The translations under genes and the position numbers were made by a program. Shown here in pieces: positions 499 to 21,856 of a DNA stretch of 64,000 nucleotides. Each line of letters begins with the position of its first letter. The stretch's first letter is position 1. Source of the stretch: Xanthobacteraceae bacterium (GTDB taxonomy: Bacteria; Pseudomonadota; Alphaproteobacteria; Rhizobiales; Xanthobacteraceae); NCBI GenBank assembly GCA_029266425.1, contig JAQSWY010000003.1, positions 1 through 64,000 on the forward strand, given 5' to 3'. The notes beneath the pieces were generated by a model, which saw nothing but the letters and a program-made list of their open reading frames with translations, had not been told where the DNA came from and made no database searches.

Positions 499-1242
499 CT
501 ACCCGCCCCCACCCGCGGGAAGGGCCTCGGTCTGCCCCTTGAGAATGCCGCCGGACCGCAGGCCGGGGAATAGCGTGTCGCGTGTGCGATCGTTCTCGAA
601 GCGGTGGCCGAACAGCGGCCATGACGTCAGGCCCGCCTTCTGGTAGATGCGGCCGTCCCAGGCCTTCGGCCCGTCGATGGTGCCGCCCTGCCCGATCACC
701 ACGGCATCGCCGGGCTTGGTCACCGCCACGCAGCGCCCGCCCTTGACGCACACGTCGGTGGCGCCCTCGGTGAGGATCACATAGAGCTTGCCGTCCTGGT
801 AGCGCACATCGATGACGGTGCCGCGCACGCCGATGACCGCGAGCGGGGTCTTGACCTCGTAGCGTCGCGGGTCGGACGCACCGGAGACGAAGCGCAGCGC
901 GCCCTTCGACAGATTGACCGCAACGCTGGTGGCGCTTCCCGAGGCATCGAACACGAAGCGATCGAGCGTCACCTCCGACGACGGACCGATCGAGAGTGCG
1001 GTCTCGTCGCGGAACAGCAGCTGCGTCGACGCATTGCCGGCGGTGCGGATGACCTCGTTCTGGCGAACCCCATCGCCGGTCGACAGCCGGCGCTGATCGC
1101 CCGGCAGCGATCCGGTGACCTCATTAAGCACCGCCGCCGCGACGCCGATGCGGCTCTGCGCCATTGCCGGTGATTCGCCGGCAAGTGGGACGCCCAGCGA
1201 GGCGGCCATTACCGCGCAAAACGAAGCAAAAAGGCGCGGCAT
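499..1242 (-). CDS. FecR domain-containing periplasmic protein
   Basis: MPRLFASFCAVMAASLG signal peptide, then LSTGDGVRQNEVIRTAGNASTQLLFRDETALSIGPSSEVTLDRFVFD...YEVKTPLAVIGVRGTVIDVRY, typical of FecR. Start chosen downstream of the maximal ORF. Confidence 0.85.
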   Translation of the reverse strand: MPRLFASFCAVMAASLGVPLAGESPAMAQSRIGVAAAVLNEVTGSLPGDQRRLSTGDGVRQNEVIRTAGNASTQLLFRDETALSIGPSSEVTLDRFVFDASGSATSVAVNLSKGALRFVSGASDPRRYEVKTPLAVIGVRGTVIDVRYQDGKLYVILTEGATDVCVKGGRCVAVTKPGDAVVIGQGGTIDGPKAWDGRIYQKAGLTSWPLFGHRFENDRTRDTLFPGLRSGGILKGQTEALPAGGGG

Positions 1243-1414
1243 CGAGGCCCCCGGGCAGACGCGATTCCAAGTTGATGTGGAAATAAAAGCACATTGCGCG
1301 AGAAGTTGCGACTCATCCGCGCTTTGCGGGTCGTCAACATGGTACGGATGCTCCCCATCGTGGCAGGTAGCCGGTTCGGGCGGGAGTCGGCATGGCTGGC
1401 GATAGGAAACACGC

Positions 1415-2749
1415 ATGCGGGGGCCGGGGGAGACGGGAATGGAACGGCAACGGAATAAGTCGTTCCCCACCCGGCGCACGCTTTGTCTGTGCGCCCTGGC
1501 GCTGGTCGCCTCGGTGAGCGCACGGGCCGATGAATTGTCGGACCTGTCGACGCGGATCATGGCCAATCCGGCCAATATCGCCACCAGCTTGGAATATGCC
1601 AAGCTCGCCGAGACAAACGGCAAGCCGCGATGGGCGCTCGCCGCCTATGAACGTGTCCTGATGCTCGACCCCACCAACACGGAAGCCTGGCAGGGACTGA
1701 GCCGCGTGCGCTGGCACATGGAGCCGGCGACGACGGTCTGGACCCTCGACGGCGGCGTGTTCGTCGATACCAACCCCTATCGGACCGGTGCGTTCGACGT
1801 TTGGGGCGATTCGCCCAATCCCTATCTGTACGTCTTCTCGGCCTACCCCGAGAAGACCGACACCTTCTACCTCGCGGGCGTGTCGATGCGCGACGACCGG
1901 CCGGCGGGCGACTTGCGCTGGCGGACCACCGCCCGCGTCGAGCAGCAGATGTGGGTCGACAATTCGCAACTCGACGGCGGCTATGTCACCGCGGCATCCG
2001 GACCGATGTTCCAGCTCACGCCGCAGATCGCCGTGCGCCTGGCGTCGATGGCGACGTTCTCGTGGCTGAACAACGGGCTCGACAGCATCGAGATGCCCAA
2101 TCCCTGGTACCCTGATTGGTCATCGGACAAAACGATCGAGTACGGCCCCGGCGGCGACGATCCCGTTCGTTTCTGGGAAGTCGGCGGACTGATCGGCTTC
2201 GAGGGCTATCTCAACGGCGCGATGCAGCGCGTCGACATCAGCGTCGGTTACCGCACCTATGGCGAGGCCTATAGCTCGAGCGAAGGCATGGTGGTCGGCG
2301 TGGTCGGCCGCTTCACCCGCCCGAATGCCATCGTCCAGGGCGACGCATTCACCATGCAGCCCTGGTTCCGCTGGGCCGATCTCGGCGAGCCGAGCGACCG
2401 CGACGAGTATATTTACTGGGACGGTGTGCGCTCCGGCTCGATCACCGAGGCCGGCGTGAAGTTCGGCTACTCCAAGCCCCTCACCTCCTGGCTCACCGCG
2501 GTCGGCACGATGGAAGTCGATTATCGCGAGACGCGCTTCTCCTGGGAGAACGATCCCTGGGGGTACCGGCCGAAGAACAGCTTGCAGGAAGTCGTTTTCG
2601 CTCCCGGCATCGCGCTGGTGCTGCCCGACTTCTTCCGTGACGGGCTCGATCTGCGGTTCGAGTATGTTTATGAATATACCGACACCAATGCCGACAATGG
2701 CGAGATTGCCGCGCAGACCTTCGGCACCAGCTTCGCCTATCGCTTCTAG
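1415..2749 (+). CDS. TPR-containing outer-membrane beta-barrel-like protein
   Basis: Signal peptide; TPR-like YAKLAETNGKPRWALAAYERVLMLDPTNTEAWQGLSRV; aromatic-rich alternating strands ending TFGTSFAYRF. Start may be the internal Met at 1439. Confidence 0.75.
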   Translation: MRGPGETGMERQRNKSFPTRRTLCLCALALVASVSARADELSDLSTRIMANPANIATSLEYAKLAETNGKPRWALAAYERVLMLDPTNTEAWQGLSRVRWHMEPATTVWTLDGGVFVDTNPYRTGAFDVWGDSPNPYLYVFSAYPEKTDTFYLAGVSMRDDRPAGDLRWRTTARVEQQMWVDNSQLDGGYVTAASGPMFQLTPQIAVRLASMATFSWLNNGLDSIEMPNPWYPDWSSDKTIEYGPGGDDPVRFWEVGGLIGFEGYLNGAMQRVDISVGYRTYGEAYSSSEGMVVGVVGRFTRPNAIVQGDAFTMQPWFRWADLGEPSDRDEYIYWDGVRSGSITEAGVKFGYSKPLTSWLTAVGTMEVDYRETRFSWENDPWGYRPKNSLQEVVFAPGIALVLPDFFRDGLDLRFEYVYEYTDTNADNGEIAAQTFGTSFAYRF

Positions 2750-2951: not shown

Positions 2952-5177
2952 ATGATTCGCCGGCATGCACCCTATGCAGCCGCCGTCACGCTTCCGCTCC
3001 TAGCGGCGCTCGCGCTCATTGTCTGGCAGCCGCGCTTCTACAGCATCATCCGCAACAATCTGTTCGACCTCTATCAGCAGGTGCGGCCGCGCGCCTGGTC
3101 GCCGGACCTGCCGGTGCGCATCGTCGACATTGACGACGCCTCGCTCGCCGCGCTCGGCCAATGGCCCTGGCCGCGCACCCGCATCGCCGAGATGATCACC
3201 CGTCTCACCGAGAACGGCGCGGCGGCGATTGCCTTCGACGTGATGTTCGCCGAGGCCGATCGCACCAGCCCGGACGCCCTCGCGGCGCAGCTGCCGGCGG
3301 GACCAACGCGCGATACGGTGGCGCAGGCGCTGCAAGGCCTGCCGGACAATGACTCGCAGCTCGCCGAGGTGGTGCGCTCCTCGCCCGTCGTGCTCGGCAT
3401 GGTGCTGACGCCCAATCAGCGGGATGCTCCACCCGCGGTGCCGATGAAGTTCGGCATCGCCGCCGCCGGCGACAACCCGCTGCTGTTCGCGCCGAAGCTG
3501 GAGGGCGCCGTGCTGCCGCTGCCGCAGCTGGTGGAGGCGGCCTCCGGCCTCGGCGCGCTCAACTGGCTGCCCGACGGCGACCAGATCGTGCGCCATGTGC
3601 CCGTCTTCCTGCGCTTCCGCGACCAGCTCGTGCCGAGCCTCGGGGCGGAAGCGCTGCGGGTGGCGCAGGGCGCCTCGACCTATGTGGTGCGCTCCTCCAA
3701 TGCCAGCGGCGACGAAGCCTTCGGTACGCACACCGGCATCCTGGCGGTGCGGATCGGCGCCATCGAGACCCCGACCGATGCCTCCGGCGAGGTGCGGCTG
3801 CGGGTCGGCCCGACCGAGCCGGGGCGCTTCATCTCCGTCGCGCGCCTGCTCGCCGGGGCGATCCCGCGCGAGGAGATCGAGGGCCGCATCATACTGGTCG
3901 GCTCCAGCGCCGCGGGCCTGCTCGACCTGCGCGCCACCCCGCTTAACGCCGCCGTTCCCGGCGTCGAGATCCAGGCGCAGTTCATCGAACACCTGGTGAG
4001 CGGGGCCCGGCTGGCGCGGCCCGACTGGGCGATCGGCGCCGAGCTGGTGCTGGCGGCGCTTCTCGGCATCGCCATGGCGGTGACGCTGCCTTTCGCCGGG
4101 GCGTTGGGCGGCGCGATCGCGGGCGGCCTCGTCGTCGGCGCGCTGTTCTTTGCGAGCTGGTGGGCCTTCGGCAACTTGGACCTGCTGCTCGATCCGCTCG
4201 GCCCGGTGATTGCCGCGAGCGCCGTCTATGTCGGCGGCACCATCCTGCTCTACAGCGCCGAGCAGCGGCAGAAACGTTGGGTGCGCGACGCCTTCGGACG
4301 CTTCGTCTCGCCCGCGGTGATCGAGCAGCTGGCCTCCGATCCGGCGCGCCTCGTGCTCGGCGGCGAGACCCGCACCCTCACCGTCATGTTCACCGACGTC
4401 CGCAGCTTCACCTCCATATCGGAACGCATGGACGCGCAGGAACTGACGCGCTTCATGAACCGCTATCTGACCCCGATGACCGACGTCGTCCTGGCGCAAG
4501 GCGGCACGCTCGACAAATATATCGGCGACGCCATCATGGCGTTCTGGAATGCGCCGCTCGACGATCCGGCCCATGGCGCCCACGCCGCCCGCGCCGCGCT
4601 CGCCATGCTCGACGAACTTGTGCAATTCAATCGCACACTGCGTGAAGAGGCGGCCGAGAAGGGTGAAGCGCCCATCGAAGTGCGCAACGGCATCGGCCTG
4701 GCGACGGGTGATTGCTGCGTCGGCAATCTCGGCTCCAGCAAGCGGTTCGATTATTCCGCCCTCGGCGACACCGTCAATCTCGCTTCCCGGCTCGAGGGCG
4801 CGACCAAATTCTACGGCGTCGCAGTGCTGGCGACGCAGACCACCCGCGACCTCGCCGATGGCCTTGCCTGGCTCGAGGTCGACCTCACCCGCGTGAAGGG
4901 CCGCACCCAGCCGCAGCGGCTGTTCACTTTGGCGGGCGATGCCACCTTCGCCGGATCGCCCGCCTTCTCGGCCCTCGTAGCGCATCACGACGCCATGCTC
5001 GCGGCCTATCGCCGAGCGGACTTCGTGACCGCCGAGCGGGAAGCCGCGCGTGCGGGAGAGCTTGCTCCGCCGACCATTGCGCGGCTCTATGCATTCTACG
5101 GGGAACGTTGCCGGCTTCGTATCGGACTGGCCGTCGACGAGGCATGGGACGCGGTGACGACCCTCGAGGAGAAGTGA
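2952..5177 (+). CDS. CHASE2 domain-containing class III adenylate cyclase
   Basis: N-terminal CHASE2 (VRIVDIDDASLAALGQWPWPRTRIAEMI...AIAFDVMFAE), TM helices, then cyclase domain (LTVMFTDVRSFTSISE, GGTLDKYIGDAIMAFWNAP, RFDYSALGDTVNLASRLEGATK) with the metal, purine-specifying and transition-state residues expected of an active class III cyclase. Confidence 0.95.
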   Translation: MIRRHAPYAAAVTLPLLAALALIVWQPRFYSIIRNNLFDLYQQVRPRAWSPDLPVRIVDIDDASLAALGQWPWPRTRIAEMITRLTENGAAAIAFDVMFAEADRTSPDALAAQLPAGPTRDTVAQALQGLPDNDSQLAEVVRSSPVVLGMVLTPNQRDAPPAVPMKFGIAAAGDNPLLFAPKLEGAVLPLPQLVEAASGLGALNWLPDGDQIVRHVPVFLRFRDQLVPSLGAEALRVAQGASTYVVRSSNASGDEAFGTHTGILAVRIGAIETPTDASGEVRLRVGPTEPGRFISVARLLAGAIPREEIEGRIILVGSSAAGLLDLRATPLNAAVPGVEIQAQFIEHLVSGARLARPDWAIGAELVLAALLGIAMAVTLPFAGALGGAIAGGLVVGALFFASWWAFGNLDLLLDPLGPVIAASAVYVGGTILLYSAEQRQKRWVRDAFGRFVSPAVIEQLASDPARLVLGGETRTLTVMFTDVRSFTSISERMDAQELTRFMNRYLTPMTDVVLAQGGTLDKYIGDAIMAFWNAPLDDPAHGAHAARAALAMLDELVQFNRTLREEAAEKGEAPIEVRNGIGLATGDCCVGNLGSSKRFDYSALGDTVNLASRLEGATKFYGVAVLATQTTRDLADGLAWLEVDLTRVKGRTQPQRLFTLAGDATFAGSPAFSALVAHHDAMLAAYRRADFVTAEREAARAGELAPPTIARLYAFYGERCRLRIGLAVDEAWDAVTTLEEK

Positions 5178-5223: not shown

Positions 5224-6069
5224 GTGCTGAGCGTGACATTCTGGGGCGTGCGCGGTTCGGCCGTCACACCGGGGCCGAAAACGCTCAAATACGGCGGCAA
5301 CACTACCTGCATCGAGGTGAACGCGGGACCGCGACGCGTGATCATCGACGCCGGCAGCGGCATCACTGCCCTCGGTATGGCGATGCGCAAGGAGCCCCCC
5401 GGCCTGGTCGATATCCTGCTCACCCATTTGCACCACGATCACATCGAGGGGCTGTTCTTCTTTCCCCCGATATTCGTCCCCGGCACCGAGATCACGATCC
5501 ATTGCGGCAATTTGGGCGGGCAGAGCCCGGAGGCGGCGCTGCGCCAATGCTTCTCGCCGCCCTTGTTCCCGCTCAGCTTCGATGACGTGCCGGCCCGCGT
5601 GCGCTTCCGCGGATTCCGCGCCGGCGAGGAACTCGATCTCGACGGGCTCGCGGTGCGCACGCATCCGCTCCACCATCCGGGCGGCGCGACCGGCTATCGC
5701 ATCGATCATGAGGGCGCGGCGGTCGCCATATTGACCGATGGCGAGCACACCGGCGCGCGGCCCGACCCTCGCCTGGTCGAATTCGTCGCGGGCGCCGACC
5801 TCGTCGCTTATGACGCGATGTTCGAACAGGACGACTATGCGCCGCACCGCGGCTGGGGCCATTCCACCCCGCAAATGGGTGCCGCGCTGGTCCGAGCCGC
5901 CGGCGCCGGACGGCTCGCCTGCATCCATCATGCTCCGCAATATGACGATGAGCGCCTGGCCCGAATCGAGGCAGAGATCGCCGCCATCTCGCCCGGCGCC
6001 TTCCTCGCACGGGAGCAGATGCGCGTCGCGCTTTCGGTCGATGCCGAGCGGCGGGTGAGCGCAAAGTGA
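5224..6069 (+). CDS. MBL-fold metallo-hydrolase
   Basis: HLHHDH metal motif in LLTHLHHDHIEGLFFF; VTFWGVRGSAVTPG N-terminus; Lactamase_B_2-like layout; directly downstream of the cyclase. Confidence 0.88.
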   Translation: MLSVTFWGVRGSAVTPGPKTLKYGGNTTCIEVNAGPRRVIIDAGSGITALGMAMRKEPPGLVDILLTHLHHDHIEGLFFFPPIFVPGTEITIHCGNLGGQSPEAALRQCFSPPLFPLSFDDVPARVRFRGFRAGEELDLDGLAVRTHPLHHPGGATGYRIDHEGAAVAILTDGEHTGARPDPRLVEFVAGADLVAYDAMFEQDDYAPHRGWGHSTPQMGAALVRAAGAGRLACIHHAPQYDDERLARIEAEIAAISPGAFLAREQMRVALSVDAERRVSAK

Positions 6070-6286: not shown

Positions 6287-9200
6287 ATGATCGCTGCGGT
6301 CGGTGTGGTGATCGTGGGAACGGGGCTTTTCTCCTACATCTGGCGGAACAGCCGGCGCGAACAGGCGTTCATCCTCGCCGTCGTCGTGCTGTCTTTCCCG
6401 TTTTATTATCTCTCGCTCGACCTGCCGAAATACATCGTCACCGATGCCCTGCAGGGTCGGGCATTCACTGGGGGCAAGGAAACCGCCCGGCTGTTTCATC
6501 TCAGCCTTGATCTGCCGAGCTGGCTGGGCGGCTCGCGCATCATCTTCGAAGGCGTGCAGTTCGGCCAATTATCCTATCTGTTCGTCCTGTCAGGCCTGTT
6601 CCTGCTGCTGGTTCTGATCAACAACGTCTTCAAATACGTCATCAACATGCGTAAGGGCGCGCTCGGCGAACGCCTCTTGCAGCGGCTGCGTTTCGACCTG
6701 TTCTCGGTGCTGCTCAGCTTCAAGCCCGAGGCGATGCAGCGGGTGAATCCGTCGGAAGCGGCGACGATCATCAAGGACGAGGTCGAGCCCATCGGTGGGT
6801 TCGTGGGCGACGCCTTCGTGCTGCCGGCGTTCCTCGGCGGGCAGGCATTGACGGCACTCGCCTTCATCCTGGTGCAGAATTTCCTGCTCGGGCTGGTCGT
6901 GATCGTGATGGTCGTGGTCCAGGCCGCCATCATCCCGCGCCTGCGACGCGAGCAGATCCGCCTCGGCCGGCAGCGCCAGATCGCCTCCCGCGCCTTCGCC
7001 GGCAAGGTCGGCGAAGTGGTGGAAGCCATCAATGAGGTGACGAATCACGGCACCGCAGCGGTGGAGAGGAGCCTGGTCGCGCAGCGCCTGGAGACGCTGT
7101 TCGGCATCCGCTACAAGCTTTATGGCCGCAAGTTCGCTGTCAAGGCGCTGAACAACCTGCTCGCCCAGGTCACTCCGTTTCTCTTCTATGCGATGGGCGG
7201 CTATTTCGCCCTCACCGGACGGCTCGATCTCGGACAGCTCGTCGCGGTGATCGCCGCCTATCGTGATGTGCCGCCGCCGATCAAGGAACTGATCGACTGG
7301 GACCAGCAGCGCCTCGATGTCGACGCCAAGTTCCAGCAGGTCATGGATCAGTTCTCGCTCGGCGAGACCCCGAAAGATCAGGCGACTATACCGGTTGAAA
7401 CTGCGGCCGTCGCCATTCCCGAGAACGGCACGATCGTCGCCCAGGGGCTGACGGTCATCAGTGCCAGCGGCGACCACCTGCTCGACCGGTTGTCGCTCAC
7501 CCTGCCGCTCGGCTCGCACATCGCGATGACCGGGACGGCCGGCCAGGGCGCCGGATGCCTCGCCCAGATCCTCGCCGGACGCGTTACCGCCTTCGAGGGC
7601 AGCCTGACGATCGCGGGGACGCCGCTGGCCGCCCTGCCCGCGGAGACCCGGGGTCGCGATCTCGCTTATGCCGGCCCCGAACCGGTCGTCTTCGATGGCA
7701 CGCTGCGCGAGAACATTCTTTATGGCTTGCGCCAGGCCGGCAGAAGCGGCGGCTGGACGATCGACCACACCAGGGCCGGTGTCGCCAGTCCAATCGATCT
7801 CGAGGTCAAGCTCATCGAGGTACTGGACACGGTGGATCTCGCCGATGCGGTCTTCCGCTTCGGCCTGACGCGCCGGCTCGCATCGGACGAGCCGACGGAA
7901 CTCATCGGGCAGATTGCAGAGCTGCGCAGCGGCATCCGCGCGCGGCTTGTGGCATCCGGCGCCGAGGAGGCGGTCGAGCCGTATGATCCGGCTAGCTACA
8001 CCCGGAATGCGACCATCGGCGAGAACGTGCTCTTCGGCGTGCCGATCGACACCGCATTCTCCGGTGCGCGCCTCGCCAGCCACGCATTGACGCAGCAGGT
8101 GCTCAACCAGTGCGCCCTGACCGAACCGCTGATCCGCATGGGCCGGTTCATCGCCGCGACCATGCTCGAAATCTTCAGCGATCTCGATCCCGACCATGTG
8201 CTGTTGGAGCAGTTCGCCTTCATCGGTGCCGACGAATTCCCGGAGTATCGCGACATTCTCGCCCGCATCGAAGCCGGAACGGCCGACGAAGCCGACAGTC
8301 TCCGGCTGATGGGTCTTGCGCTACTTTATATCGAGCCGCGTCACCGGCTCGGCCTGCTCGACGCCGATCTCGAGCAACGCATCCTCGCGGCGAGGCACGC
8401 CTTTCGTGCGCAGGCCGAGGCGACGCCGGAGGTGGCCGACGCGATCGCCTTTTACGATCCGCGGCTCTATTGCAGCGCCGCGCCGCTACGCGACAATCTG
8501 CTGTTCGGCCTGCTGGCGCAGGTCGCGGCGTCGGTGCGCGTCATCAATGCCATCCGCCAGACCCTCGCCGAATTCGGGCTGGACCACGAAATCTATTCCT
8601 GGGGTCTCGAACAGCCCGCGGGCTATGGCGGCCGGCTCCTGTTCCCGGCGGAGAAGGCGCAGGTCGGGCTGGCCCGCTGCCTGATCAAGCAACCCCGGAT
8701 CCTGGTCCTGAACAACGCGCTCGGCTCCTTCAGCCCCGCCGAAGCGAACACGCTCATCGCGAGTATCCGGACGGCAATGGTGGGGCGGACGATGATCGTC
8801 GTCGGCCGGGAGTTCGCCGACGAGCAGCACTTTGACATGCATGTCGCCTTCCAGGGATCGAAACTGGTGCCGAAGATCGACGCGCTCGCGCCGGCGACCG
8901 ACCGGTCGACCGGTGCGGACGGCAGGCTGGAGAATGAGGAGCTTGCGGCGCTGCGCGCGGTCCCGATCTTCGCCAATCTCGATGTGCCACGCCTCAAGCT
9001 GCTGGTGTTCACCAGTGAGCGCATGCATTTCGCTCCCGGCGAGATCCTGTTCCACCAGGGCGACGATTCCGACGCGGCTTATGTCGTCGTCAGCGGAACC
9101 GCCGATGTCGTGATCGATGGGCCAGACGGCCCGGTCGTCGTGTCGACCGTTGGCACCAACGCCATCGTCGGCGAAATGGGCATCGTCACTGGCGATCCGC

Positions 9201-9388
9201 GCTCGGCGACGATCGTCGCGAAGACGCCGCTCATCGCCCTGTGCCTGCGCAAGGAGGTCTTCGTGGCGCTCCTGGCGGAGTTCCCGGACATGTCGCTGTC
9301 GGTCACGCGGCTGATGGTCAAGCGCCTGCAGGAAAACCTCACCAAGCTGAGCCGGCGCGAGCGCGAACCGACCAAATCCCAGACCTGA
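6287..9388 (+). CDS. ABC transporter-like membrane protein with degenerate nucleotide-binding domain and C-terminal cyclic nucleotide-binding domain
   Basis: 1033 aa; ABC transmembrane-like N-half; degenerate Walker A (GTAGQGAGC) and Walker B (ILVLNN); C-terminal cNMP-binding domain with cassette-like VGEMGIVTGDPRSATIVA. Confidence 0.88.
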   Translation: MIAAVGVVIVGTGLFSYIWRNSRREQAFILAVVVLSFPFYYLSLDLPKYIVTDALQGRAFTGGKETARLFHLSLDLPSWLGGSRIIFEGVQFGQLSYLFVLSGLFLLLVLINNVFKYVINMRKGALGERLLQRLRFDLFSVLLSFKPEAMQRVNPSEAATIIKDEVEPIGGFVGDAFVLPAFLGGQALTALAFILVQNFLLGLVVIVMVVVQAAIIPRLRREQIRLGRQRQIASRAFAGKVGEVVEAINEVTNHGTAAVERSLVAQRLETLFGIRYKLYGRKFAVKALNNLLAQVTPFLFYAMGGYFALTGRLDLGQLVAVIAAYRDVPPPIKELIDWDQQRLDVDAKFQQVMDQFSLGETPKDQATIPVETAAVAIPENGTIVAQGLTVISASGDHLLDRLSLTLPLGSHIAMTGTAGQGAGCLAQILAGRVTAFEGSLTIAGTPLAALPAETRGRDLAYAGPEPVVFDGTLRENILYGLRQAGRSGGWTIDHTRAGVASPIDLEVKLIEVLDTVDLADAVFRFGLTRRLASDEPTELIGQIAELRSGIRARLVASGAEEAVEPYDPASYTRNATIGENVLFGVPIDTAFSGARLASHALTQQVLNQCALTEPLIRMGRFIAATMLEIFSDLDPDHVLLEQFAFIGADEFPEYRDILARIEAGTADEADSLRLMGLALLYIEPRHRLGLLDADLEQRILAARHAFRAQAEATPEVADAIAFYDPRLYCSAAPLRDNLLFGLLAQVAASVRVINAIRQTLAEFGLDHEIYSWGLEQPAGYGGRLLFPAEKAQVGLARCLIKQPRILVLNNALGSFSPAEANTLIASIRTAMVGRTMIVVGREFADEQHFDMHVAFQGSKLVPKIDALAPATDRSTGADGRLENEELAALRAVPIFANLDVPRLKLLVFTSERMHFAPGEILFHQGDDSDAAYVVVSGTADVVIDGPDGPVVVSTVGTNAIVGEMGIVTGDPRSATIVAKTPLIALCLRKEVFVALLAEFPDMSLSVTRLMVKRLQENLTKLSRREREPTKSQT

Positions 9389-9534: not shown

Positions 9535-9764
9535 TTGCCCCTATAGCTTGGCGTCGCGCTATGCGCTGCGCCCGGCGAATGTCCGAACTGATCACGGTCC
9601 GGAAACAGCATGCCCGACCAAGCAACAATCCAGGACATGCCATCTGGAAGGCGGCTTCGCACGCCGTTCCGATCGTTCCGGCCGATGATGGGCACGTGGC
9701 CCGCCAGCGCGGGGAACGCTCGGAGCGCTCGCGTGGCGTCGCCGCAACAAGAGGAGGAGACCGC

Positions 9765-10232
9765 ATGTCCGCTGAGGCCAAGGCCACATCCACCAGCACG
9801 ATTAACGAGGGCGCGATCAAGGCCGGAGACGGCGCCTATCTCTTCGATCTGCCTAACCTCGCCAAGATGGGAGCCGGCGAAAACTATTCCACGTCCTTCG
9901 GTTCTGTTGTCGAGGGCGAGCGCATCCAGATCGGCCTCATGAGCAAGCCGCGCGGTACCGGCGCTCGTCCCCATTCGCACCCCAATGAGCAGTGGAACTA
10001 TGTGCTGAAGGGCAAGCTGCGCGTCTATATTGAGGGCGAGGAAGAGCGGATCGCCGGTCCCGGCACCCTCATCTATTTTCCTGCCAACAAGATCCACGCA
10101 ACGGTCGCCCTTCCCGACGAAGATGTTGTCTTCTTCGTCGCCAAGGATCTCTCCTACGGCATCGCCGGCATCCCCGCGGACGGCATTCCGTCCGGCCCGC
10201 ATTATGACAAAGGCTTCGCACCGAAGCGCTGA
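9765..10232 (+). CDS. Cupin domain-containing protein
   Basis: Cupin motifs ARPHSHPNEQWNYVLKGKLRVYIEGEEERIAGPGTLIYFPANKIHATVA; GAGGAGGAG Shine-Dalgarno just upstream of ATG 9765. Confidence 0.88.
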   Translation: MSAEAKATSTSTINEGAIKAGDGAYLFDLPNLAKMGAGENYSTSFGSVVEGERIQIGLMSKPRGTGARPHSHPNEQWNYVLKGKLRVYIEGEEERIAGPGTLIYFPANKIHATVALPDEDVVFFVAKDLSYGIAGIPADGIPSGPHYDKGFAPKR

Positions 10233-10308
10233 ACGGCTCGTTCGCGAACACGGAACGGCATCGGCAGACGCGAATAACGCGCGCCGACACGATGGAAGAG
10301 GAAACGCC

Positions 10309-11289
10309 ATGATGAAACTCGCTGCCGGCGCGATCGCCGCGCTGATGTCGGTGGCGGCCACGGTCGCGATAACGCCCGTCGCCAACGCCCAGAGCTACCC
10401 GACCAAGCCGATCGAACTCGTCTGCTCGACCTCGCCCGGCTCCACCGCGGCCCAGTGGTGCCAGTTGATGGCGCAGATCCTGGCCAAGCCCGACGTGCTC
10501 GGAAAGCCCGTGAACGTCGCCTATAAGGGCGCCGGCTCAGGGAATGAGGCCGCGGTTTACACGCTGCAGCGCCCAGCCGACGGCTATACGCTGCTGCACG
10601 CGAGCGCCAGCTTCAGCGGCTACATGAACCTGCCGACCTTCTCCGCCAAGCCGGACGACTTCGAGTTCCTCGCCAGGATCGAGAAGTTCATCTACGTGCT
10701 CGCAGTGCCAACCGACAGCAAGTACAAGACCTTCGTCGAGCTCGTCTCGGCCGCCAAGGCCGCGCCCGGCACGATCGCCGTCGCCGGCAACAAGATCGGC
10801 TCGATCCACCACAAGCACATCATCGCCGCCTTCAAGGCCGGCGGCGCGCACGTGAACCACATCCCCTATGAGGGCTCGGGCGATGCAGTCCGCGACCTGC
10901 TTGGCGGCCACGTGCCGGTCGGCCTCGGCTCCATCGGACAGATCCAGCCACATGCGGAAGCCGGCAAGCTGCGCCCGCTGGTGGTGTTGAACGAGAAGCG
11001 CTCGCCCGCCATGCCCGATGTGCCGACCATCCAGGAACTCGGCTACGTCTATCCGATCTCGCATCAGTGGCAGGGCATCTTCGTCAAGAAGGGCACGCCC
11101 GAGGCGGTGAAGGCAAAGCTGCGCGAGGCGTTCGGCAAGGTGGTCAACGGACCCGAATATGCCGACTATCTGAAAAACAGCCCGCATGTCGAAAAGGCGT
11201 TCGATACCGACGGCGCCGCGCTGCAGAAGTCGTTCCAGGACGAGCTGAACGACTATCGCGGCTTCATGCAGGCCAACGGCATTCTTTGA
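10309..11289 (+). CDS. tctC: Tripartite tricarboxylate transporter substrate-binding protein (Bug/TctC family)
   Basis: Signal peptide then AQSYPTKPIELVCSTSPGSTAAQW...GGHVPVGLGSIGQIQPHAEAGKLRPLVVLNEKRSPAMPDVPTIQELGY. Confidence 0.92.
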   Translation: MMKLAAGAIAALMSVAATVAITPVANAQSYPTKPIELVCSTSPGSTAAQWCQLMAQILAKPDVLGKPVNVAYKGAGSGNEAAVYTLQRPADGYTLLHASASFSGYMNLPTFSAKPDDFEFLARIEKFIYVLAVPTDSKYKTFVELVSAAKAAPGTIAVAGNKIGSIHHKHIIAAFKAGGAHVNHIPYEGSGDAVRDLLGGHVPVGLGSIGQIQPHAEAGKLRPLVVLNEKRSPAMPDVPTIQELGYVYPISHQWQGIFVKKGTPEAVKAKLREAFGKVVNGPEYADYLKNSPHVEKAFDTDGAALQKSFQDELNDYRGFMQANGIL

Positions 11290-11378
11290 GGTCGCGCCGC
11301 TCCTGCACCCGCGCCGGCCGTGAGGCTGTCGCGGGTGACCGGCGCCGGACATTGCGCATTCGAGATTGGTTGGTTGGC

Positions 11379-11876
11379 ATGATCACCTTCAGCAGACGTC
11401 GGGCAGAGGCCGCGACCGCACTGGTGCTGCTCGGCGCCATCGTTTTGCTGTTCGTCCACACCTTCAGCTTTGCGCCGTCACCGATGCGCGGCTATCCGGG
11501 CGCGGCTTTCATGCCGCGGCTGATCCTTATCTATGCGGGCATCTTCGTCCTGCTCTGGCTGGCGCGGCTGCTGCTGTGGCGCACCCCGGTGGTCGACGAA
11601 CTCGGCATCGAGCGCGACGACACCGTCGAGTTCGAGTACCGCGACTACCTCATCACGATCGCCGCTGTTCTCGGCTTTGTCGTTGCGCTCGATTGGGTGG
11701 GATTCGAGGTCGCCTGCTTCGTGTTGCTGGTTCTCCTGTTCCTCGGCCGAATACCCAATCTGGCCCTCAATCTCCTCGTATCGGCACTGACGACGATCGT
11801 GTTCTATGCGGTGTTCGTGCTGCTGCTGAACGTCACCGTGCCGCTCGCTTTTCTCCCTGCCTATATCTCGTTCTGA
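11379..11876 (+). CDS. tctB: Tripartite tricarboxylate transporter small membrane subunit TctB
   Basis: Four-TM small membrane protein between TctC and TctA genes. Confidence 0.85.
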   Translation: MITFSRRRAEAATALVLLGAIVLLFVHTFSFAPSPMRGYPGAAFMPRLILIYAGIFVLLWLARLLLWRTPVVDELGIERDDTVEFEYRDYLITIAAVLGFVVALDWVGFEVACFVLLVLLFLGRIPNLALNLLVSALTTIVFYAVFVLLLNVTVPLAFLPAYISF

Positions 11877-11880
11877 GGGT

Positions 11881-13407
11881 GTGGCCGTGGGTGTGCTGTT
11901 CGACAATTTCCTTCCCGCACTCTACCTGGTGCTGGCGCCGAACAATCTGCTGATCATGACGATCGGGATCATTGTCGGCACCATACTTGGCGCGCTGCCG
12001 GGCTTCGGCGCCGCCCAGGCGCTGGCGCTGATGTTCCCGTTCACCTTTGGCATGAGCCCGGAATCGGGAGCGCTCTTCTTCATCGCCATCTATGCGGCGG
12101 CGGAATATGGCGGCTCGATCCCGGCCATCCTCATCCGCACCCCCGGCACCACGGCGGCGGCCATCACCGTGCTCGACGGCTATCCGATGGCGCAGCAAGG
12201 CAAGGCCAGCCGCGGACTCAAGATCTCGCTCTATACCGGTGTCGTCGGCAGCATCGTGAGCAGTTTCATCTTCCTGTTCGCAGCATCGAGCCTCGCCTGG
12301 GTCGGGCTGCAGTTCGGGCCGAGCGAGATGTTTGCGGTCGGCATCTTCGGCCTGTCGATCATCGGAAGCTTCTTCGGCGACAGCCCGGTGAAGGGCTTCA
12401 TCGCCACCGGCATAGGGCTGTTCCTCGCGACCATTGGCAGTTCGGGATTCGCCGGCCTGCGCTTCACCTTCGACCAGCCCGCGCTCATGGACGGCGTGCC
12501 GTTGCTGGTGGTCATCATCGGCGTGATGGCAATTCCGGAAGCCTTCAGCCTGATGATGGCGCGCAAGGGCGATGACCCGGAACTCGCCAAGATGACGACC
12601 GGCGACATCGAGGCCAATCGCGTCGGCTGGAAGGTGATGAAGGACCTCACCCCGACCATGGCCAGGGCGACCTTGATCGGCACCGCCGTCGGCGCGATCC
12701 CCGGCCCCGGCGCCACGGTCTCGTCGCTGCTCGCCTATAGCGAGGAAAAGCGCTGGTCGAAGTACCCCGAGAAGTTCGGCACCGGCATTGACGAGGGCGT
12801 TGCCGCGCCGGAGACGGCGAACAATGCCGTCGTCGCGGGATCGCTCATTCCCTCGCTGGCGCTCGGCATTCCGGGATCCGGCGCCATCGCCATCCTGCTC
12901 GGCCTGCTCATCAGCAAGGGCGTGGTGCCGGGGCCGCTGCTGTTCACCAAGGACAGCCCGCTGGTGATGGCGGTGTTTCTCGGCCTGATCGCCTCGGCAT
13001 TGCTAATGCTGGTGGTCGGCATTGCCGGTGTGCGCATCTTCGCGCAGGTCGCGCGCATCCCGCGCTACATACTGGCGCCGTTCGTACTGATGCTGCTCAT
13101 CATCGGCACGTACTCCTATCAGAACTACGCCGCCCACGTGGTCATGGCCCTGGCGCTCGGCGCGGTCGCCTTTTGGCTCGAGAAAATCCGCGTTCCGGTT
13201 ATCCCGATCGTTCTGGCATTCGTGATGGGGCCAATCATCGAATCCAATCTCAACCGCGCGATGGTGATCCATGGCGGCGATCTCGGCTTCTTCCTCACCC
13301 GGCCCATCACCATCGCCATCCTGCTGCTGGCGCTGGCGACGGCAGTATTGGGGTTCCTGCGCTCACGACCGCCGGCAAGCGCAGCGGGCGAGCCCGTGAC
13401 CCAATAG
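11881..13407 (+). CDS. tctA: Tripartite tricarboxylate transporter large membrane subunit TctA
   Basis: GTG start; GTILGALPGFGAAQALALMFPFTFGM and IPGPGATVSSLLAYSEEKRWSKYPEKFGTGIDEGVAAPETANNAVVAGSLIPSLALGIPGSG are TctA hallmarks. Confidence 0.95.
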   Translation: MAVGVLFDNFLPALYLVLAPNNLLIMTIGIIVGTILGALPGFGAAQALALMFPFTFGMSPESGALFFIAIYAAAEYGGSIPAILIRTPGTTAAAITVLDGYPMAQQGKASRGLKISLYTGVVGSIVSSFIFLFAASSLAWVGLQFGPSEMFAVGIFGLSIIGSFFGDSPVKGFIATGIGLFLATIGSSGFAGLRFTFDQPALMDGVPLLVVIIGVMAIPEAFSLMMARKGDDPELAKMTTGDIEANRVGWKVMKDLTPTMARATLIGTAVGAIPGPGATVSSLLAYSEEKRWSKYPEKFGTGIDEGVAAPETANNAVVAGSLIPSLALGIPGSGAIAILLGLLISKGVVPGPLLFTKDSPLVMAVFLGLIASALLMLVVGIAGVRIFAQVARIPRYILAPFVLMLLIIGTYSYQNYAAHVVMALALGAVAFWLEKIRVPVIPIVLAFVMGPIIESNLNRAMVIHGGDLGFFLTRPITIAILLLALATAVLGFLRSRPPASAAGEPVTQ

Positions 13408-18100: not shown

Positions 18101-21100
18101 CTACCAGCGGACCTTCAGGCCCGCGGTTCCGGCCCAACCCTCGACATCGCCGAAATTGTACTCGCCGCTGCCATAGAGCGCGACGCTATCGGTGAGCTTG
18201 GCATCGAAGCCGAGACCGGCATTGTACCAGGTGCCGCCAATGTCGCTGGTGAGCACGGTGCCTGCGACGTTGGTGTCGTTGTCGCCCATGAACTCGGACA
18301 GCACGTTGAACACCGCCCAGGGCGTGAAGCTCTGGCCGTTGATCCCGGCGATCGTGGTCTGGAACTGGACGCCCAGGCGACCAATCAGCGAGTCCGCATC
18401 CTCAGGGCTCACGTCCAGCCCGTAGGAGTCGGTGTAGCTGTCCTGGTCGACGTTCGCGTAGGTCAGCTGCGCCTGCGGCTGGATCACGAAGCCGCTGCCG
18501 ACATCGAAGCCGTAGCCGACCTCCGCCGAGCCACCCCACACCGAGGCGTCGGTGCTGGCCGAAATCGGCAGCGCGTCGTCGAGCAGGCGATCGGCATTGA
18601 TGTCGACATCGAGGCTGTCGTACTTGAAGACGAAGTCCGCATAGCCGCCGACACCCGGGAGAGTGCCGCCAACCTGGCGGATGGTGGCATAGGCGCCGGC
18701 GCTCCAGCCGTCGAGCTTGAGGCGGGAACGCGAGCCGAAATCGCCGTACACGTCGGCGTCCGACCAGCCATAGCCGCCAAAGGCGCCGAGGCTGACGCGG
18801 GCGTCGGTCAGGTCGAAGGTGTAGTCGGCGCCGATCTGGAAGCCCCAGGTCTCCTGATCGAAGTCCCAACCCTTGTCGACCTCATAGGAGAGGTCCGAAC
18901 CGCCGCCGCGGCCCCACACCTGGAAGCGCGGCGCAGGAGCCGGCACATAGGCCGGCGCCTTGGTCGCCATTGGAAGGTCGGCATTGCGGCCCTCCAGCGC
19001 GTCCAGCGCGCGGAGCTCGCCGAGGCGCTTATAGAGCGTATCGACGCCGGCATAGAAATGCCGCTGCGCGGCCGACGAGACCGTCACATAACCAGGCACT
19101 GATTCCAGCAGGCTCGACTGCAGGTACTCGTCGCCGGCGGTCGGGCCGGACTGCGACTGCACCAGCTGATAGCTGAAGGCGCCGACCAGCAATTCACGTC
19201 CGCCGGAGAACTGGTTCCGGGCGAGCTGGAAGCTGTCGTCCGCCGAGGCGCCGGTGACGTCGACGAGGCGGATGCCATCGCCGTCGTCATTGCCGGTGAA
19301 GGTGCCAGCGCCCTGGTTCAGGTTGTTGACATAGATGGTGGTGGTACCACCGACATTGCCGTCGATGGTCAGCAGGTCGGTCGGCGAGGCGCTGCTGTAC
19401 ACATAGCTGTCGAGCAGCAGATTGCCGCCCTCGTTGTTCGGGCCACCCAGCGTGGCGCCACCGAAATAATTGCCGACGATGTTGTGCTGATCGTCGGCGA
19501 AGCCGTCGGTCAACAGGATCGTGCCGTTATTGAGGTACGTGCTCGCGCCCTGCGCCGTGATCGTTGTATTGGTGGCGAGCCCCTGACCGGACACGTCCAG
19601 CAGGCCGCCAAAATTGGTGAGCACGCCGGCATCGTTGCCGGTGATTAGTCCGGCGTAGTAGCCGGTGCCGGACTGGAGCTCGAAATGATCCGTCGTCAGG
19701 CTCGCGTCCACGAATGCGAGCGACAGGACGGAGTCACCCCCCACCGTCACATTGCCGTCGGCAAGACCATTGGTCTCATGCCGGAAGTCATAGCTCGTCG
19801 CCGTCAGCGAGACGTTGGAATGCTCGCTGATGTTCAGGTGATCGATGCCGAGAATGGTGCCGAACTCGATGTTCGAGCCGCCATTGACGTTCATCGTGTC
19901 TTCGCCGGCGTCGGCAAGGCCGTCATCGGTTCCGTCGCCGCGAATGTCGCCGCCGAGCACGAAATTGGTGTTATTGACACCCGTGAAGGTGAAGCTGTCG
20001 TCGCCATCACCGCCATTGATATTGCCGTTGATCTGCACCAGCGCGTTCACGCCCGGGCTGAACACCAGTATGTCGTTGTCGGCGCCGGCCCCCACGCCGC
20101 CACCGATCAGGACCTTGCCGAAGCCGGTGGGCGAGAAGGTCATGGTGTCGATGCCGGTATCGCCCGTGACATTGCCGGTGATACGGACTTCACCGTCCTG
20201 GGACGGGACGAAGTCCATGGTGTCTGCACCGCCTTGACCCTCAACGTTGCCATTTATGGTGACGATCTTCTGCGTGCCGTTGGAGATGAGGCCGTTCGCG
20301 TTGAACGTGATGTGGTCGTCGCCTCCGTCGCCAAAGACACCATCGCCCGCAACCCCGGTGCCGACCGTGCCCGAGGTGAGGGTGATGATATCCCCTTCCG
20401 TGCCGCCATCGATGAGCGAGCCGATGGTCGCGCCGTTGAGCGTGATGGTGTCGACGCCTGCATTGCCGCGAACCTGCGCCGCCGAGCCGCTGAGCAGATC
20501 TATCGTGTCATCGCCGCCGCCGCCGCTGACCAGGTTCGTGATGGTGGCGCCATTGAGCGTGATCGTGTCGGCGCCGCCATCGCCGAACACATTGGCAGCG
20601 GAGCCGGACGTCAGATTCAGCGTATCGATGCCGTCATTGCCATGGATGTTACCACTGATGGTGGCGCCATTGAGCGTGATGGCGTCGTCGCCCTCACCGC
20701 CGAGCACCGCGGCTCCAGAGCCGGACGTCAGGTTGATGATGTCGCCGTCGTCACCACCTTCGATATTGCCTGCGATCGTAGCGCCGTTTAGCGCGATGTT
20801 GTCGACCCCACCGCCGCCAAGCACCGCCGCCGCGGAGCCGGAGGTCAGATTGATCGTGTCGCCCTCGGTGCCACCGTCGATATTGCCGGTGATCGTGGCG
20901 CCGTTCAGCGTCATGTTGTCCGCGCCGGCGCCGCCGAGCACCGCCGCCGCGGAGCCGGACGTCAGATTAATCGTGTCACCCTCGGCGCCGCCGTCGATAT
21001 TGCCCGCGATCGTCGCGCCGTTCAGCGTGATGATGTCCACGCCGGCGCCGCCAAGCACGGCCGCGGCCGAGCCGGAGGTCAGATTGATCGTATCGCCCTC

Positions 21101-21856
21101 GGTGCCACCGTCGATATTGCCGGTGATCGTGGCGCCGTTCAGCGTAATGATGTCCACGCCGGCGCCGCCGAGTGCCTGAGCAGCCTGTCCACCGAGCAGA
21201 TTAAGCGTATCGCCGTCGGCACCCCCATCGATATTGCCCCCGACCATAGCGCCATTCAGGGTGATGATGTCGCTACCTACATCACCGAGCACATTGCCGC
21301 TGACAGTTGTCGCAACATTGGTGCTGTTGGCGATCGTGATCTGATCGTTATCGATCCCGCCGTTCACGTCGCCATTGATCTGCACCGTGCTTCCCGGAGC
21401 CGGCGTGCCGACCACAGGTGCTGTGCCCACGCCGATGATGTCTGCACCGTCACCGCCGAGCACGCTACCGCCGACGACAATACTGCCTGATCCGACGCCT
21501 GCCGCGCCGGGTGACACGATGATGGAGTCGCCTCCGGCAAGACCCTCGACATTGCCGGTACCTAGAGTGACGGAGCCGCCGATCACCCTGACCTGGTCGT
21601 CGCCCGCAGTGCCGGTGACCGGCCCGTACGGGTTCGGGGCCTGGCTATCGCAGGTCAGATTGTTCGCTGGACCAGTACAGCCGGCGAGCGCCGCGTTAGG
21701 CCCATAGGTGAGGCCGAGAAGCCCTGTCGCCAGCGCGGTGCACAGCATCAGCGAAGCACGGCGGCTACCTACCTTCGAAACGGGAAACCGCGCTTGCTTC
21801 GAGCGAACCCGAAAAGCAGGGGTTTGGCGTTCCTCAACTCTTATCGACATTCTCAT
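18101..21856 (-). CDS. Autotransporter outer membrane protein with 39-aa repeat passenger
   Basis: Extended signal region (RRASLMLCTALATGLLGLTYGPNAALAG); repetitive passenger; C-terminal barrel FQVWGRGGGSDLSY...GSGEYNFGDVEGWAGTAGLKVRW. Confidence 0.93.
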   Translation of the reverse strand: MRMSIRVEERQTPAFRVRSKQARFPVSKVGSRRASLMLCTALATGLLGLTYGPNAALAGCTGPANNLTCDSQAPNPYGPVTGTAGDDQVRVIGGSVTLGTGNVEGLAGGDSIIVSPGAAGVGSGSIVVGGSVLGGDGADIIGVGTAPVVGTPAPGSTVQINGDVNGGIDNDQITIANSTNVATTVSGNVLGDVGSDIITLNGAMVGGNIDGGADGDTLNLLGGQAAQALGGAGVDIITLNGATITGNIDGGTEGDTINLTSGSAAAVLGGAGVDIITLNGATIAGNIDGGAEGDTINLTSGSAAAVLGGAGADNMTLNGATITGNIDGGTEGDTINLTSGSAAAVLGGGGVDNIALNGATIAGNIEGGDDGDIINLTSGSGAAVLGGEGDDAITLNGATISGNIHGNDGIDTLNLTSGSAANVFGDGGADTITLNGATITNLVSGGGGDDTIDLLSGSAAQVRGNAGVDTITLNGATIGSLIDGGTEGDIITLTSGTVGTGVAGDGVFGDGGDDHITFNANGLISNGTQKIVTINGNVEGQGGADTMDFVPSQDGEVRITGNVTGDTGIDTMTFSPTGFGKVLIGGGVGAGADNDILVFSPGVNALVQINGNINGGDGDDSFTFTGVNNTNFVLGGDIRGDGTDDGLADAGEDTMNVNGGSNIEFGTILGIDHLNISEHSNVSLTATSYDFRHETNGLADGNVTVGGDSVLSLAFVDASLTTDHFELQSGTGYYAGLITGNDAGVLTNFGGLLDVSGQGLATNTTITAQGASTYLNNGTILLTDGFADDQHNIVGNYFGGATLGGPNNEGGNLLLDSYVYSSASPTDLLTIDGNVGGTTTIYVNNLNQGAGTFTGNDDGDGIRLVDVTGASADDSFQLARNQFSGGRELLVGAFSYQLVQSQSGPTAGDEYLQSSLLESVPGYVTVSSAAQRHFYAGVDTLYKRLGELRALDALEGRNADLPMATKAPAYVPAPAPRFQVWGRGGGSDLSYEVDKGWDFDQETWGFQIGADYTFDLTDARVSLGAFGGYGWSDADVYGDFGSRSRLKLDGWSAGAYATIRQVGGTLPGVGGYADFVFKYDSLDVDINADRLLDDALPISASTDASVWGGSAEVGYGFDVGSGFVIQPQAQLTYANVDQDSYTDSYGLDVSPEDADSLIGRLGVQFQTTIAGINGQSFTPWAVFNVLSEFMGDNDTNVAGTVLTSDIGGTWYNAGLGFDAKLTDSVALYGSGEYNFGDVEGWAGTAGLKVRW
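20370..21272 (-). repeat. Roughly 8 imperfect tandem repeats of 117 bp (39 aa) within the autotransporter passenger
   Basis: Protein unit IITLNGATITGNIDGGTEGDTINLTSGSAAAVLGGAGVD repeated with substitutions. Confidence 0.9.

Follow-up and report, generated by a model that had tools for sequence, protein, structure and literature searches.

An ABC exporter-like protein family of Alphaproteobacteria with a non-canonical ATP site and a conserved cyclic-nucleotide-binding partner domain

The window is a stretch of 64,000 nucleotides from a Xanthobacteraceae bacterium. An open reading frame on the forward strand (6287..9388) encodes a protein of 1033 residues, denoted here as pseudo-ABC, which resembles an ABC exporter and consists of a transmembrane domain (TMD), a split and degenerate nucleotide-binding domain (NBD), and a C-terminal cyclic-nucleotide-binding (cNMP) domain. 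Three genes are located upstream on the same strand. The first encodes a TPR protein with a C-terminal part that is judged by eye to be outer-membrane-barrel-like (1415..2749). The second encodes a CHASE2 sensor with a class III adenylate/guanylate cyclase, in which the catalytic residues are present by eye (2952..5177), and the third encodes a hydrolase with the metallo-beta-lactamase fold (5224..6069). The HxHxDH motif of the hydrolase is intact when read by eye (THLHHDH), and the enzyme is probably a cyclic-nucleotide phosphodiesterase. The pseudo-ABC gene follows the CHASE2 cyclase and the metallo-hydrolase in the same order in genome G022, where the TPR gene is also conserved, and the same operon is retained with the closest orthologue (78% identity). 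The genes for the pseudo-ABC protein, the CHASE2 cyclase, and the metallo-hydrolase of the window apparently form one operon.

A FecR-domain gene on the reverse strand (499..1623) is divergent from this operon. FecR matches were also found at two other loci that contain a CHASE2 cyclase (L063 and L065). Downstream, positions 9561-13407 encode a cupin, a TctC-type receptor, and additional ORFs that resemble a tripartite tricarboxylate transporter and are unrelated to pseudo-ABC. A large ORF at 18101-21856 on the reverse strand is rich in repeats, and its C-terminal half is autotransporter-like.

The frame of pseudo-ABC is open across all 1033 codons, as the initial annotation had stated. The start codon is uncertain; homology begins at approximately residue 14, the true start may be as far as ~13 codons downstream of 6287, and residues 1-10 are of low confidence in the structure model. 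The ABC fold, which had been described as still recognizable, is detected by Pfam with E values of 6e-8 for ABC_tran and 1e-7 for ABC_membrane. The match to cNMP_binding (1e-20) is by far the strongest. No Pfam match to a C39 peptidase domain was obtained for this ORF. All of the features described below within the ORF are on the forward strand.

The TMD spans residues 14-356 (6326..7354) and matches Sav1866 (1e-13), TmrAB, and MsbA in a PDB profile search. A small beta element is predicted between TM1 and TM2. The fifth helix, TM5, is polar and highly conserved (K286, N289, N290, Q294, and T296). The N-terminal half of the NBD (residues 380-485; 7424..7741) was delimited using Pfam, alignment, and the structure model, and the C-terminal half (residues 771-865; 8597..8881) using alignment and the model. 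The AlphaFold model, which was calculated from an 82-sequence alignment, has a pLDDT of 86.7 and a pTM of 0.76. The best PDB matches in a fold search are P-glycoprotein (P-gp), PCAT1, and TmrAB, with target-normalised TM-scores of up to ~0.6 for half-transporters. A domain of six TM helices is joined to a RecA-like NBD, as in the type IV ABC exporters MsbA, Sav1866, TmrAB, and PCAT1 (PF00664 and PF00005), and the protein has the fold of a type IV exporter half-transporter.

The Walker A position of the NBD (residues 416-424; 7532..7558) reads GTAGQGAGC, with Ala422 in place of the Lys and Gly423 in place of the Ser/Thr. The sequence LLFPAEKAQ (residues 784-792; 8636..8662) replaces the LSGGQ signature. 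The Walker B segment with the catalytic Glu reads ILVLNN (residues 805-810; 8699..8716), with Asn809 and Asn810 in place of the Asp and the Glu, respectively. The degeneracy of these three motifs had been reported in the initial annotation and is found at exactly the positions given there. In addition, the His of the H-loop is replaced by Arg841 (8807..8809).

The Walker A and Walker B positions were compared in 161 aligned homologues. Of these, 101 rows were found with the query and are biased to it. The other 60, collected from genome samples at the class and phylum levels with a profile of the insert alone, are much less so. The loss is conserved: a canonical ATP site is present in 0 of the 161 homologues. 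The Walker A Lys followed by Ser/Thr was found in one sequence, the Walker B Asp followed by Glu in one, and all four residues together in none. LSGGQ is likewise found in 0 of the 161 homologues, and the H-loop His is retained in 19. Orthologues with canonical Walker motifs, which had been anticipated as evidence against a conserved loss, are thus absent from the alignment, and the possibility that the window copy is a degenerate exception among canonical orthologues was rejected. The same pattern, GxxxxGK[ST], is readily found in ABC ORFs that are unrelated but lie at the same loci, and in 30 of 30 MsbA-like controls. No ATP site is left in the window lineage, and that of the family as a whole is non-canonical.

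The extent of the loss differs among lineages. In lineages other than that of the window, the Walker A Lys is kept in 49 of the 161 homologues (followed by Asp or Glu in 41 of these), and a signature-like motif, L[ST]xxQRQ(K/R), is retained in many. An Asn-Glu pair (LNE) occurs at the Walker B-Glu position in 31 of the 161 homologues. Nucleotide binding or slow hydrolysis may therefore persist in the Lys-keeping and Asn-Glu lineages. The Walker B Asp of the Lys-keeping homologues is often Asn or Ser, and together with the acidic residue after the Lys this would be compatible with an exchange of Mg2+ ligands. The most degenerate members include the window clade, which has lost the Lys, the following acid, the Asp, the Glu, the His, and the signature. 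On a tree of 145 TMDs, the presence or absence of the Lys requires 18 changes and the fusion of the cNMP domain requires 3, counts that do not separate gain from loss.

The two halves of the NBD are separated by an insert (residues 486-770; 7742..8596). The additional ~240-285 residues split the NBD into a half with Walker A and a half with the signature, and carry duplicated modules. The core of the insert (residues 560-772) is not matched by Pfam, nor significantly by any PDB sequence. Assignment as a known domain was therefore rejected, and an internal duplication is seen instead. The insert holds two additional copies of the Q-loop/helical segment of the NBD itself, each with an x-loop motif that is followed by helices. 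The motif reads TLRENILYGL in the first copy (residues 472-481; 7700..7729), ATIGENVLFG in the second (residues 575-584; 8009..8038), and APLRDNLLFG in the third (residues 732-741; 8480..8509). Profile-profile comparison of the three blocks with hhalign gave E values of 2e-14, 1e-8, and 1.5e-6, and those for control blocks were 0.17 to 0.62. The Asn residues of the three motifs (476, 580, and 737) are invariant or nearly so.

Other genomes of the genus encode full-length orthologues (63-78% identity), as do Bosea and its relatives. Pairwise dN/dS values are 0.12-0.33 overall and less than 1 in every domain. This comparison, another of the checks that had been proposed, indicates purifying selection. 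In a family sample drawn by profile, the mean pairwise identity is 52% for the TMD, which is the best-conserved part of the family, 35 and 40% for the two NBD halves, and 39% for the insert. In 30 alphaproteobacterial MsbA-like controls, the corresponding values are 37% for the TMD and 58% for the NBD. The order of conservation in the family is reversed relative to the MsbA-like controls, with the TMD more conserved than the NBD.

The cNMP domain of the window protein spans residues 880-1020 (8924..9346), with the phosphate-binding cassette GEMGIVTGDPRSAT at residues 962-975. The assignment to PF00027 is based on the profile match and on the cassette pattern GE...R[ST]A. Across the family, the pocket residues Gly, Glu, and Arg are present in 154, 144, and 152 of 154 sequences, respectively. 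The domain is either fused to the exporter-like protein (29 loci) or encoded directly downstream on the same strand (124 loci), and these two arrangements account for 153 of 160 loci. For the other 7 loci, the domain is 559 nt away in one, a contig end cuts another, and no domain was detected in five. From these pocket residues, the fused or adjacent domain is predicted to be ligand-competent. Cyclase or metallo-hydrolase neighbors are found at 45 of the 160 loci, mostly those of relatives of the query.

Members of the family were identified in 79 of 240 sampled Alphaproteobacteria genomes (~1/3), and the matches in a phylum-level draw are confined to the same class. Two MAG records that are labeled Betaproteobacteria/Rhodoferax (L085 and L130) hold members and may be misbinned. 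Shadow frames dominated a clustering of the raw neighboring ORFs, which was set aside as evidence; a codon-position filter on these ORFs revealed glycosyltransferases. The genes for pseudo-ABC and the cNMP domain are next to such enzymes in most of the class. A GT28-like enzyme (GT28a; PF04101; divergent) is found less than 600 nt from the pair formed by pseudo-ABC and its cNMP domain in 77 loci. It is followed in the cluster by a GT4 enzyme (PF00534) and then by a second GT4 enzyme and a second GT28-like enzyme. An S-adenosylmethionine methyltransferase (PF12692) is encoded near the pair in 43 loci, mostly downstream on the same strand. A GT28-like family that co-occurs with pseudo-ABC contains the strongly conserved motif YSHDTFGLGHLRR (L203 3180-4565(-), L077 6531-7835(-), alignment A4) and matches PF04101 and TIGR00661 weakly. 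A DUF3095 protein (PF11294) is encoded downstream of the pair at one locus (L116 13344-15287(+)).

Among the 240 Alphaproteobacteria genomes, pseudo-ABC and GT28 are both present in 75, only pseudo-ABC in 4, only the glycosyltransferase in 2, and neither in 159; the Fisher p value for this co-occurrence is not corrected for relatedness, kinship inflates the association, and linkage accounts for part of it. In several genomes, the two genes are far apart, yet both are present. Within the genus of the window, both glycosyltransferases are found in 8 of 8 genomes with the family and neither is found in 6 of 6 genomes without it. GT28 is present in all 9 of the checked genomes that contain a window-type copy or a near relative, and most of these also have a second, unfused copy near GT28. 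In two Alsobacter genomes, the single family copy is on a different contig from the glycosyltransferase.

The family is linked to glycosyltransferase genes, and the window copy itself is unlinked. The genome of the window (G000) contains an unfused copy on contig C219:114667-133803 (L044 and L297), together with a PF12692 methyltransferase, glycosyltransferases, and a class III cyclase that carries a 2Fe-2S domain (Fer2). This makes the window copy a fused paralogue that has diverged, and a glycan role for it would be an extrapolation from the remainder of the family, since no glycosyltransferases lie beside it. On contig C36:52349-55345 (L045) there is a third copy, fused and deeply diverged (28-33% identity), which has a relative in G022. 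A divergent clade is also found in G214 and G398, with as many as three copies in one genome.

The combination of a non-canonical ATP site, an intact cNMP sensor, and co-occurrence with glycosyltransferases suggests a transporter that would be switched by a signaling nucleotide rather than driven by ATP. The reading that we favor, with a little less than even confidence, is that the family may function as an ATP-hydrolysis-independent pseudo-exporter under cyclic-nucleotide control, probably serving an envelope glycan pathway. Two copies would form a homodimer in which the NBDs, enlarged by duplication, act as a non-hydrolytic scaffold. A cyclic nucleotide bound to the C-terminal domain, and not ATP turnover, would switch or assemble the membrane part, and transport of the substrate through this part would run downhill or be coupled to an ion. 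Across most of the class, the neighboring GT28/GT4 enzymes would make the cargo, either an envelope glycan or a glycolipid. For the window copy, the cNMP signal would be made by the CHASE2 cyclase of the operon and removed by the metallo-hydrolase. In its most specific form, this proposal describes a widespread alphaproteobacterial translocator that has the body of an ABC exporter but no longer hydrolyzes ATP. A cyclic nucleotide would open or assemble it, and it would act in the synthesis or export of an unrecognized and possibly methyl-modified surface glycan; the window paralogue would be under the control of a CHASE2 cyclase and a phosphodiesterase of its own. This complete version is unlikely to be correct in every part.

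The suggestion in the initial annotation that the NBD has become a scaffold possibly gated by cNMP is partly supported, with a family-wide loss, purifying selection, and an intact cNMP pocket all consistent with it; the loss proved to be graded across lineages. That annotation did not include the loss of the H-loop, the insert with its duplication, the conserved TMD, the encoding of the cNMP partner by a separate gene in most species, or the association with glycosyltransferases.

A somewhat unlikely alternative is a membrane receptor or scaffold that carries out no transport. The TMD would anchor or orient glycosyltransferases, or sense the state of the lipid or the periplasm, and the cNMP domain would relay the signal. 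An ATP site that is dead throughout, a TMD that is conserved best, the constant pairing with a cNMP domain, and the enlargement of the NBD with a duplicated module are all compatible with this role. SUR1, an ABC protein that acts as a regulator, provides a precedent. In CFTR (a channel) and SUR1 (a channel regulator), the ABC fold serves gating and not pumping. Both are full transporters of eukaryotes and contain one or two nucleotide sites; the likeness to pseudo-ABC is in the ABC fold, with no sequence closeness claimed. The full exporter topology is kept, however, with its polar and highly conserved TM5, and an export step would fit the co-occurrence with genes for glycan synthesis.

An unorthodox exporter that is still driven by ATP is improbable. 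Its Mg2+ ligands would have been swapped (Walker A Ser/Thr to Asp/Glu and Walker B Asp to Asn), and a different catalytic route would be used. The acidic residues after the retained Lys, the Asn-Glu pairs, and the signature-like motif of other lineages are in accord with such an enzyme, but the window clade has lost the Lys, the acid, the Asp, the Glu, the His, and the signature together, and conservation is lower in the NBD than in the TMD.

Still less probable is a heterodimer in which pseudo-ABC is the degenerate half and a canonical ABC protein, encoded elsewhere, is the other. Degenerate-site ABC heterodimers are common, but they keep one full composite site (PMC7756269). A composite site takes the Walker A motif from one subunit and the signature from the other, and both are gone here; both composite sites would thus be broken and rescue by a partner is unlikely. 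At the examined loci, no gene for a canonical type IV exporter is a recurrent direct neighbor; the nearby canonical ABC ORFs lie at distances of kilobases, most of them on the other strand. The three copies of the family in the genome of the window are all non-canonical. A pseudogene or an assembly or sequencing error, which might be suspected from the fragmented assembly and its 7.5% contamination, is effectively ruled out by independent orthologues with the same residues, open frames, dN/dS values that indicate purifying selection, and conserved synteny.

The family was compared with known systems. The glycan flippases PglK, MsbA, and NdvA use the exporter fold for glycans or glycolipids, and all are driven by ATP; their relation to pseudo-ABC is through gene association only. 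Unlike the type IV exporters, the family is without a canonical ATP site, contains the duplicated insert in the NBD, and conserves the TMD more than the NBD. The degenerate-site transporters TAP, TM287/288, CFTR, and Pdr5 have also lost catalytic residues under selection (PMC7756269). Each of these keeps one working site per transporter, whereas the pseudo-ABC family appears to be without any.

HetC and LmrA serve as precedents for the favored reading. HetC is an ABC exporter that requires both its cNMP domain and its ATPase Glu, and its CRP-like domain bound ppGpp (PMC10986499). The presence of a cNMP domain therefore does not imply independence from ATP, and conservation of the pocket does not identify the ligand. 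The combination of an ABC exporter with a CRP-like ligand domain, which is essential for function in HetC, is shared with HetC and the NHLM-type exporters (PMC10986499). HetC differs in having an N-terminal cNMP domain, a C39 peptidase, and the essential ATPase Glu; here the cNMP domain is C-terminal or encoded by a separate gene, and Asn810 occupies the position of the Glu. The membrane domain of LmrA alone was reported as a secondary-active translocator that is ion-coupled without an NBD (PMC6155054). That case is an artificial truncation, whereas pseudo-ABC keeps an NBD that is predicted to be non-catalytic. No description of the pseudo-ABC family was found in the open-access literature, and absence there is weak evidence.

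ABC transporters are defined by their ATP site. In the family described here, the ABC body is kept and the membrane part is protected while the site is lost, which offers a natural test of the role of an NBD without ATP. To our knowledge, few direct, non-transcriptional outputs of cyclic nucleotides are known in bacteria, and the strict pairing with a cNMP domain suggests an output of this type. The near-perfect co-occurrence with a set of glycosyltransferases points to a concrete pathway in which the family may act.
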